The translations under genes were made by a program, and so were the position numbers. A stretch of DNA of 64,000 nt from Microbacterium marinilacus (GTDB taxonomy: Bacteria > Actinomycetota > Actinomycetes > Actinomycetales > Microbacteriaceae): assembly GCF_019753765.1 (NCBI RefSeq), contig NZ_JAIJZW010000002.1, positions 346,382 through 410,381 on the forward strand, in the 5' to 3' direction. Below are positions 50,778 through 52,828 of this stretch, piece after piece; the stretch's first letter is position 1, and the number at the start of each line of letters is the position of its first letter. Under the pieces are notes generated by a model, which saw only the letters and a list, made by a program, of their open reading frames with translations, searched no databases and was not told where the DNA came from.

Positions 50778-51857
50778 GTGACGGCGGTGCCGATCACGAT
50801 CGGCATGCGCCCCGCGCCCGTCGCCGGCGCGGAGGCGGGGACGGGGCCGCTCGTCGACACCTTCGGCCGGGTGCACCGCGATCTGCGGATCTCCCTCACC
50901 GACCGTTGCTCGCTGCGCTGCACCTACTGCATGCCGGAGCAGGGCAACGAGTGGCTCGCCCGCACGAGCATCCTCACGCTCGACGAGATCGAGCGCGTCG
51001 CGCGCGTCGCCGCGTCAGCGGGCATCAGCACGTTCCGGCTGACCGGCGGGGAGCCTCTGCTGCGGACCGACATCGTGGACGTCGTCCGCCGGCTCGCGGC
51101 GATCGAGGCCGTCGCGCCCGACGGGACCCGCAGCCCGGTCCAGATCGCGATGACGACCAACGGCATCCGCCTGCCCGAGTTGCTGCCCGGCCTGATCGAC
51201 GCGGGCCTGACGCGCCTGAACATCTCGATCGACACGCTGCGGCGCGAGCGTTTCCGCGACCTCACGCGCCGCGACCGACTGGACGACGTCCTCGACGGGA
51301 TCGCGGCGGCCGCAGCCTCGGGGCTGCGCCCCCTGAAGCTCAACGCCGTGGCGGTGCGCGACGTGAACGAGGACGAGCTGGTCGAGCTGGTCGAGTTCGC
51401 GGTGGCCCATGACGCGCAGCTGCGGTTCATCGAGCAGATGCCGCTCGACGCGGGGCACACGTGGTCGCGCGAGCGCATGGTGACCCGAGAGGAGATCCTC
51501 GAGACGCTCTCGCGGCGCTGGCGTCTCACGCCCGTGCCCGGGCGCGGGGGAGCGCCGGCCGAGACGTGGATCCTCGACGGCGGCCCGCACCGGGTCGGTG
51601 TGATCGCCTCGGTCACCGCGCCGTTCTGCGGTGCTTGCGACCGTCTGCGCCTCACGGCGGATGGTCAGTTGCGCAACTGCCTGTTCTCGACGACCGAGTT
51701 CGACCTGCTGCCCATCCTGCGGAGCGAAGGCGCCGATCTCGACGCCGAGCTCGACGCGATGATGCGCGGCTGCATCCTGCGCAAGCTGCCCGGGCACGCG
51801 ATCGACGACCCGTCGTTCCTGCAGCCGACCCGCGGCATGAACGCCATCGGCGGCTGA
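50778..51857 (+). CDS. moaA: GTP 3',8-cyclase MoaA
   Basis: MoaA starts molybdenum cofactor synthesis by radical SAM-dependent rearrangement of GTP. The 359-residue protein has the SAM-cluster cysteines C44, C48 and C51 (TDRCSLRCTYCMPEQG), RLTGGEPLLRTDIVDVVRRL, and the C-terminal second cluster site FCGACDRLRLTADGQLRNCL, ending in the essential Gly-Gly (NAIGG). The GTG at 50778 follows GGAGCG. It stands apart from the other Mo-cofactor genes, which end at 47764. Confidence 0.97.
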   Translation: MTAVPITIGMRPAPVAGAEAGTGPLVDTFGRVHRDLRISLTDRCSLRCTYCMPEQGNEWLARTSILTLDEIERVARVAASAGISTFRLTGGEPLLRTDIVDVVRRLAAIEAVAPDGTRSPVQIAMTTNGIRLPELLPGLIDAGLTRLNISIDTLRRERFRDLTRRDRLDDVLDGIAAAAASGLRPLKLNAVAVRDVNEDELVELVEFAVAHDAQLRFIEQMPLDAGHTWSRERMVTREEILETLSRRWRLTPVPGRGGAPAETWILDGGPHRVGVIASVTAPFCGACDRLRLTADGQLRNCLFSTTEFDLLPILRSEGADLDAELDAMMRGCILRKLPGHAIDDPSFLQPTRGMNAIGG

Positions 51858-51917
51858 GCGCACGACCGCCCGCCCACGCCGGCCCCGAGCACTCCGCTCG
51901 ACACCGCACCGCCGCGT

Positions 51918-52041
51918 CGAGACCGCGCTTCCTGCGCTACACCGCGCCCGCGGAACGAGACCGAGCTTCCTGCGCGAGACCGTCGCCGACGGTCCCGGTC
52001 TCGCTCAGGACCTGCGGTCTCGCGCAGGACTTGCGGTCTCG
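51918..52041. repeat. 19-bp-period array of CGAGACCG/CGGTCTCG boxes
   Basis: The 8-bp box CGAGACCG occurs at 51918, 51956 and 51975, with a decayed copy (CTACACCG) at 51937, so the period is 19 bp. After a 13-bp GC-rich centre its reverse complement CGGTCTCG occurs at 51996, 52015 and 52034, again every 19 bp. Spacers share CTTCCTGCG and its counterpart CAGGAC. The whole is an imperfect large inverted repeat in the convergent gap between moaA and map. It could form a long hairpin acting as a terminator, or be a genome-wide intergenic repeat family. Confidence 0.85.
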
Positions 52042-52054
52042 GTCTGTGCGGGGG

Positions 52055-52828
52055 TCAGAGGCCCGTGCGGTCGGTGAGGACGATCGGGCCATCGGCGGTG
52101 ATCGCGATCGTGTGCTCCGAGTGCGCGCCGCGTGAGCCGTCGACGCTGCGCAGGGTCCAGCCGTCGGGGTCCGTCACCAGCTCGTCGGTGGTCTGCAGGA
52201 ACCAGGGCTCGATCGCGATGACCAGGCCGGGCTTGAGGGGGAACCCGCGTCCCGGACGGCCGTCGTTGGGCACGTGCGGATCGCCGTGCATCACGCGGCC
52301 GACCCCGTGACCGCCGAAGTCGGTGTTGATGCTGAGGCCCTCGCCGTGCGCGACGGCCGCGATCGCCGCGGAGATGTCGCCGATCCGGTTGCCGGCCGTG
52401 GCCGCCGCGATCGCGGCGTCGAGCGCTCGCTCGGTCGTCTCGATCAGCGCGAGGTCCTCGTCGCGCGGGGTGCCGACGACGAACGAGACGGCGGAGTCGG
52501 CGACCCATCCGTCGACGGACGCGGCGAAGTCGAGGGTGACCAGGTCGCCGTCGCGCAGCGAGTAGTCGTGGGGGAGACCGTGCAGGACCGCGTCGTTGAT
52601 GGACGTGCAGAGCACCTTGCCGAACGGGCTCGCCCCGAACGACGGGTGGTAGTCGATGTAGCAGGACTCGGCGCCCGCCTTGCGGATCATCTCGTGTGCG
52701 CGACGGTCGATGGCGAGCAGGTTCGTGCCCACCTTGGTGTCCTCGCGCAGCGCCGCGAGGGTCTCTGCGACGAAGCGGCCCGCCGGCCGCATCCGCTCGA
52801 TCTCGGCAGGGGTGCGCAGTTCGATCAT
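52055..52828 (-). CDS. map: Methionine aminopeptidase, type I
   Basis: This enzyme removes the initiator Met from nascent proteins. The 257-residue protein has the pita-bread fold with metal ligands Asp100 and Asp111 (VTLDFAASVDGWVADSAVSF), a His in FGGHGVGRVMHGDPHVPND, and two Glu in IAIEPWF and HSEHTIAI. The ATG at 52828 has GAGAGGA upstream. It is a single gene, convergent with moaA across the repeat array. Confidence 0.96.
   Translation of the reverse strand: MIELRTPAEIERMRPAGRFVAETLAALREDTKVGTNLLAIDRRAHEMIRKAGAESCYIDYHPSFGASPFGKVLCTSINDAVLHGLPHDYSLRDGDLVTLDFAASVDGWVADSAVSFVVGTPRDEDLALIETTERALDAAIAAATAGNRIGDISAAIAAVAHGEGLSINTDFGGHGVGRVMHGDPHVPNDGRPGRGFPLKPGLVIAIEPWFLQTTDELVTDPDGWTLRSVDGSRGAHSEHTIAITADGPIVLTDRTGL

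Follow-up and report, generated by a model that had tools for sequence, protein, structure and literature searches.

A dispersed family of 19-bp-phased palindromic arrays in Microbacterium and its association with AbiEi-like, probable nuclease genes

Mycobacteriophage stoperators are short asymmetric protein sites located between genes. The repeat described here likewise consists of short asymmetric, putative protein sites between genes, but it is chromosomal, arranged in phased inverted arrays and linked to a nuclease-like gene. With MITEs it shares short non-coding inverted repeats that have a gene-bearing relative elsewhere, whereas no target duplication or clean empty site was found here in 11 gaps compared between sister species, and Pfam detected no transposase domain in the partner protein. 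AbiEi antitoxin domain proteins have an N-terminal winged helix like that of the partner, in which, however, it is joined to a probable nuclease domain.

REP/REPIN-RAYT systems combine dispersed extragenic palindromes with one cognate gene lying between two copies, a layout also found here with another enzyme. A RAYT gene is flanked by two REP copies (PMC2817692), and REP copies usually number more than 100 per genome. The system described here differs in its enzyme, which is AbiEi-winged-helix/DUF559-like and not a Y1 HUH transposase, in its element, a 19-bp-phased box array with at least two boxes per arm, and in its abundance, with 31 strict box-pair matches against the usual >100 REP copies. 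A DUF559 protein has been placed in the PD-(D/E)XK superfamily with Vsr (PMC12907096), and the partner protein resembles DUF559/Vsr-like PD-(D/E)XK endonucleases in its 215-column profile match to proteins selected with PF04480. Among the papers listed in a search of the open-access full-text literature, none linked DUF559/AbiEi proteins to dispersed palindromes or described the repeat, and an earlier description is possible. What we describe looks like a so far unreported partnership of a selfish DNA repeat and its enzyme.

The array in the moaA-map gap

We analysed a stretch of 64,000 nucleotides of the Microbacterium marinilacus genome (G000; the whole stretch is hereafter the window). An earlier sequence-only reading had pointed to boxes at exact 19-bp steps, ordered as an inverted repeat around a 13-bp centre in a convergent gap. 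Direct reading confirmed this arrangement of CGAGACC boxes in two inverted arms at window positions 51899-52041 and added one further decayed box at 51899, so that five boxes read forward (51918, 51956 and 51975 intact, 51899 and 51937 decayed) and three reverse (51996, 52015 and 52034). As moaA (+) and map (-) face each other, the 197-bp gap between them is convergent. The features are as follows.

50778..51857, + strand: moaA (context), 3' end toward the array; matches at E<=0.001 in 130/149 genus genomes
51899..52041, no strand: the complete array, an inverted palindrome of eight boxes (two decayed) and a solo copy of the CGAGACC family
51899..51906, + strand: left box 5, decayed, CGACACCG; direct read, absent from the boxes listed in the sequence-only reading
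51918..51925, + strand: left box 4, CGAGACCG; direct read
51937..51944, + strand: left box 3, decayed, CTACACCG; direct read
51956..51963, + strand: left box 2, CGAGACCG; direct read
51975..51982, + strand: left box 1 (inner), CGAGACCG; direct read
51983..51995, no strand: 13-bp centre, TCGCCGACGGTCC
51996..52003, - strand: right box 1 (inner), CGGTCTCG on the + strand; direct read
52015..52022, - strand: right box 2, CGGTCTCG on the + strand; direct read
52034..52041, - strand: right box 3, CGGTCTCG on the + strand, 13 bp from the map stop codon
52055..52828, - strand: map (methionine aminopeptidase; context), converging on the array; matches in 149/149 genus genomes

The CGACACC type of the decayed left box 5 recurs as a box variant in the relative G071. 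Exact matches to CGAGACCG number 26 in the window, six of them within the array, against an expectation of 15.3, and 26 was reached in 2 of 100 shuffles. When the 64 kb were scanned for four-box inverted arrays irrespective of box sequence, the moaA-map array was the only one at step 19; steps 17, 18 and 20 gave none and step 21 gave one, located elsewhere. On both strands, the predicted RNA fold of positions 51890-52060 was stronger than that of every one of 200 shuffled sequences (z -5.15 for + and -3.74 for -). No terminator of the type GC-rich stem followed by a T-run was detected within 51700-52250, and the single Rfam match, at 17.1 bits, lay below its gathering score of 200. Among orthologous gaps 3' of map, with the gene placed by motif search in 26 of 30 loci (our own included), the array was present in our genome only.

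Copy number, distribution and anatomy of the palindromes

The pattern GGTCTCG-N12-GGTCTCG has 31 matches in the 3,888,012 bases (32 contigs) of the M. marinilacus genome and the reversed-pattern control has none; the array is therefore not unique. This count, together with the same geometry in other genera, rules out the chance local duplication that a unique occurrence would have indicated in the sequence-only reading, and we hold that origin to be next to impossible. The form with the exact centre occurs at 11 places in this genome, and the theme GCCGNCGG is found in 5 of these 11 centres, that of the moaA-map array included.

Across the genus, 88 of 149 genomes (our own included) have at least one match, with a maximum of 40 per genome and no more than 2 control matches in any genome. 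Matches extend to 62 of the 299 genomes sampled from the family, but most of these genomes have just one or two, which control counts of up to 3 make doubtful; clear sets beyond the genus occur in G300, G400 and G412. In a sample of 198 genomes from the order, a stricter inverted pattern matched six, four of them from this genus (control 0). Public contigs with inverted arrays, among the matches listed, belong to several Microbacterium species and Rothia kristinae, and weaker matches among those listed to Frigoribacterium, Cellulomonas and Phycicoccus. Head-to-tail 19-bp tandem arrays with GGTCTCG and no inverted arm were noted in Pseudonocardia kujensis (L098) and in an Akkermansiaceae MAG (L077); since the search pattern itself selects 19-bp spacing, these may be coincidental. 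Pseudonocardia hydrocarbonoxydans has an inverted 19-bp array of opposite polarity, with a GGTCTCG arm followed by CGAGACC (L120:5488-5557).

The repeat unit is an asymmetric box of about 12 bp with a CGAGACC core, and its copies form two inverted arms. Neither the 7-bp core nor the 19-bp step varies between genomes, whereas the neighbouring bases are genome-specific and common to both boxes of an arm, giving the flavours CGAGACCGC in our genome, CGAGACCGA in G115, GCCGAGACCCC in G029 and G071, GCCGAGACCTGCA in G069 and GACGAGACCTGA in G400. The stretch between the inner 7-mers (c) measures 15, 16 or 26 bp depending on the genome, and 14 bp in one G412 element. No GTAG or CGTC tag of the REP type was found at the palindrome end, where the aligned consensus reads CGAGACC...GGTCTCG.

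We compared pairing of the arm spacers within elements with pairing across elements. It was weakly higher within elements in our genome (6.64 vs 5.73 of 12, p 0.015) and in G115 (p 0.057), and was no better within than between elements in G029, G300, G071 and G069 (p 0.27, 0.95, 0.76 and 0.67, respectively). In our genome and G115, measures of paired cells and covariation were not clearly above shuffles. The centre hairpin of the c=26 elements covaries, with both-side changes in 10 of 11 pairs and a score of 0.664 that none of 500 shuffles reached (0.182 in shuffles). When 29 c=26 rows were pooled in one alignment, the arms modestly exceeded shuffles (0.122 vs 0.088, 1/500), and this speaks against reading them as protein sites only. 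Of the possibilities raised from the sequence alone, a protein-binding array is the one we favour for the arms, because core and spacing are conserved and the spacers pair no better within an element in 4 of 6 genomes. A pure RNA hairpin was rejected for the arms, as spacer complementarity was weak or absent in the single genomes tested. The arms may thus be protein sites, and the centre possibly an extruded or transcribed hairpin.

A gene family between palindromes

A cassette in G050 (L337) led us to PF04480, and an HMM built from the proteins matching it was used to rescan the fetched loci. PF04480 had 32 matches in five genomes, with 5 to 8 in each. By eye, many of 30 such loci have, among those listed, gene-specific palindromes on both sides, and a scan found three with 19-bp arrays. 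These loci (L354-L383, from five Microbacterium genomes) show palindromes such as GAGTGCCATATGGCACTC (L371) and GAGAGTCCAAGACACCCGG (L373), some of them with an 18-bp step. An HMM match in G029 (L187) is a gene located between two CGAGACC palindromes; homologous genes, also between palindromes, occur in G115 (L171) and in G400 of another genus (L213), their products being 33% and 32% identical to L187. Used as queries against the genus, these proteins had matches at 1e-10 in 137 of 149 genomes.

To this family belongs a gene of our own genome, on contig C28 at ~174.9-176.0 kb (minus strand), which carries a GEADG-type motif and is flanked on either side by box pairs scoring at least 13/14; the genomes in the search that gave it had been chosen mostly as array-rich. 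The gene is interrupted in its middle by a 72-base run of G and C only (L457:1995-2066), with frame changes nearby. The run may be an assembly fault or a real lesion, and the gene may be non-functional or misassembled; it was left out of the tree for this reason. Two further own-genome members, L422 (C1, ~272.5 kb) and L429 (C2, ~21.3 kb), have two-sided 19-bp arrays of other boxes, of which no dispersed copies were found in the window or in 12 other own-genome stretches scanned.

We then counted CGAGACC box pairs at >=12/14 near 53 family loci whose flanks were complete, leaving aside 7 truncated ones; the loci retrieved were a part of each genome's family matches. Pairs lay on both sides at 18 loci, on one side at 7 and on neither at 28. 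Three of the 53 repeat the same gene (L414, L415 and L416), leaving 50 distinct loci, of which 18 are two-sided at 12/14, 10 at 13/14 and 6 at 14/14; two of the 18 (L384 and L385) are seeds, and the 12/14 threshold admits the variants CGAGACT (L408, L439), CGACACC (L393) and CGAAACC. At this threshold two-sided pairs occur at 0 of 30 moaA, 0 of 30 map and 0 of 30 PF04480 control loci, and one-sided pairs at 5, 1 and 1, respectively.

With a scan for four-box arrays that ignores box sequence, 38 of the 50 distinct family loci had a step-19 array on at least one side, 21 of them on both, and steps 17, 18, 20 and 21 gave at most 1 over all 53 loci. At the moaA and map loci combined, step-19 arrays were two-sided in 0 of 60 and present on any side in 2 of 60 (L218 and L248), both of which are the moaA-map array itself. 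With a wider variant of the scan, step 19 was found at 41 of 53 loci and any other step from 14 to 26 at no more than 2. PF04480 loci showed both step 18 (2 on both sides, 6 on any) and step 19 (3 and 4, respectively). Given the step-19 excess near family loci, the 19-bp spacing looks like a property of the protein family, with a box that differs by member.

Further flanked members were found in G047, G066 and G109, and a second family in G111. Among 68 distinct members in the tree (distinct proteins, 400-bp flanks, our split gene left out), 26 are two-sided at 12/14 and 42 lack two-sided CGAGACC boxes at that threshold, a number of the latter having other boxes. In G140 and G050, which are array-rich, the boxes beside the flanked gene that was identified are of the CGAGACT type instead of CGAGACC; no flanked gene was found in G032. 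CGAGACC pairs pass on one side only in G117, and no such pair lies beside the best member of G069 (L398). The 46 stretches of viral contigs that matched a peptide pattern yielded no confirmed relative, and all six plasmid records recovered were below 60% identity. One member, L424 (G144:C1), has a longer tandem run of boxes on one side, with right-arm pairs at 2756, 2775, 2794, 2813, 2832 and 2851, which suggests arm growth by 19-bp duplication.

In the tree, the seven c=15 genes all fall within a single clade of 19 rows (support 99/99), and the 13 c=26 genes all within a group of 39 rows (91/78); the four c=16 genes are mixed, and two two-sided genes have no measured c. Centre length thus co-segregates with protein clade.

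The N-terminus is AbiEi-like, with PADLOC AbiEi models matching down to 1.6e-15 and Pfam AbiEi_4 matching 11 of 18 members at E<=0.1 (the scores shown are below the curated cut-off). For the remainder, neither Pfam DUF559 nor REase_MTES_1575 matched any of the 18 members at E<=0.1 (one REase_MTES_1575 hit at 0.18), and the nuclease assignment is based on profile comparison: hhalign against seven PF04480-selected proteins gave a probability of 97.9% and E 5e-13. Residues E216 and D248 and the motifs GExDGxxKY and EKxR are invariant in 18 members (numbering of the first row of A7; some proteins in alignments A5 and A7 had been identified by their position between arrays). A search of the PDB by sequence gave no convincing solved relative (2 matches, E 0.1 and 0.29). 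The partner protein has an AbiEi-like winged helix at its N-terminus and, probably, a DUF559/Vsr-like PD-(D/E)XK nuclease at its C-terminus.

Placement, turnover and possible explanations

Of 74 arrays in eight genomes, 39 lie in convergent gaps, 29 in tandem and 2 in divergent gaps, 1 is inside a gene call and 3 could not be assigned; array-free gaps of 90-400 bp at the same loci are 53 tandem, 34 divergent and 4 convergent (gene calls in both sets came from a crude GC-frame script). A comparison of flanks among the eight genomes (>45% protein identity) identified only two places common to species. Between the sister species G140 and G050, whose aligned flanks are ~93-97% identical, an array is common to 6 of 11 orthologous gaps and 5 differ. 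Instead of the array, two of the differing gaps hold CGAGACT palindromes of the same 19-bp geometry, one a DUF559/AbiEi-type gene and one another sequence with a palindrome-like stretch; the fifth is truncated. At one G140/G050 locus, the nucleases share 52% identity and neither palindrome reads the same, whereas the surroundings align at 93.5-94.7%. At a second, G050 has palindrome, nuclease and palindrome where G140 has a single such palindrome; by reading, G140 also has a different gene there and a stretch resembling the 3' end of the nuclease, and the family HMM gave no match at this G140 locus.

We consider it quite probable that the moaA-map array is a solo dispersed copy and that the repeat family and the nuclease gene form a two-part system resembling REPIN/RAYT, with an unrelated enzyme. 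The palindromes could be bidirectional terminators or 3'-end stabilising hairpins that arose by ordinary duplication, the link to the nuclease being incidental. Such a role would suit the distribution of the 70 classified arrays (39 convergent, 29 tandem and 2 divergent), the strong fold (z -5.15), and the covariation, which is strong in the c=26 central hairpin and modest in the pooled arms; yet the region contains no T-run terminator, pairing measures in G000 and G115 are not clearly above shuffles while the core and the 19-bp step are fixed, and the two-sided flanking of one gene family and the clade-linked centre length are left unexplained. We judge this account quite unlikely. Also unlikely, if a little less so, is a role of the boxes as operators for a regulator or a defence nuclease, either in AbiEi-like autoregulation or as self/non-self sites; the dispersed copies would then be regulatory sites or decoys that did not arise by mobility. 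The AbiEi-like winged helix, the conservation of the boxes as spaced direct repeats, as often seen in protein sites, and their presence in the gene's own 5' and 3' flanks speak for operators, but the dispersed copies lie at the 3' ends of unrelated genes and in only 2 of 70 cases in divergent gaps, their positions are rarely common to species (two places in eight genomes), and whole palindromes and cassettes have been swapped between sister species.

The sequence-only reading had also raised a mobile palindromic repeat family and proposed looking for REP-type transposase genes. A dispersed, genome-specific family was indeed found, and the REP-type partner was not. The layout is that of RAYTs flanked by two REPs (PMC2817692), but a single genome of the 149 in the genus, not ours, has a Y1_Tnp match, while the control was positive in 5 of 14 named genomes. 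No classical transposon ends around a transposase were noticed in the sequences inspected. Mobilisation of a REP/BIME family by a RAYT (Y1 tyrosine transposase) is very improbable, and a RAYT/Y1 transposase (Pfam PF01797) is refuted for our genome as far as the Pfam model reaches.

The two-part explanation builds on what is observed, namely the family, its 19-bp geometry, the two-sided flanking, the clade-linked centre length and the turnover of solo copies and cassettes. To these it adds that the partner protein would bind, cut and spread the repeat. The winged helix might read the boxes as phased dimers or tetramers, and the nuclease might cut or nick the palindrome, at its centre or at an extruded hairpin; repair or recombination could then copy palindromes and cassettes into other gaps. 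Copies would persist mainly at the 3' ends of genes, where they would do least harm, and may serve there as two-way transcription terminators, a role that would fit the 3'-end placement.

DUF559/AbiEi-like genes recur in these genomes, and a group of them can now be linked to a concrete DNA target: a palindrome specific to the family, which lies to either side of the gene and also at dispersed places in that genome. If the explanation is true, REPIN-like repeat populations could be sustained by a second class of enzyme, repeat persistence could be tested with one protein and one DNA of ~70 bp, and nature would offer many nuclease-site pairs that differ in specificity. On balance we lean slightly toward a broader view, in which Actinobacteria, above all Microbacterium, harbour a whole class of selfish nuclease-palindrome pairs, several per genome. 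Each AbiEi-winged-helix/DUF559-type nuclease would recognise its own 19-bp-phased inverted array (18-bp in some PF04480 relatives), use cut-and-repair to spread cassettes and solo palindromes through 3' gaps and change its specificity in situ, convergently with REPIN/RAYT and by means of an unrelated enzyme.

Some details of the sister-species gaps were also noted. A second family with CGAGACT boxes (CGAGACTTCA...) coexists in G140 and G050 and has its own flanked nuclease-type gene (L336, L345, L439 and L444), and its palindromes replace CGAGACC ones at two orthologous sites. The DUF559/AbiEi-type gene that lies in G050:C1 (L337:2506-3423) is flanked by TGTCCC...GGGACA and occupies the gap that holds a CGAGACC palindrome in the sister species (L346, G140:C1). 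At ~486.5 kb of G050:C1 (L342), a palindrome-like repeat, CCCTTCGACGAGCTCAGGG, fills a gap in which the sister species has a CGAGACC array.
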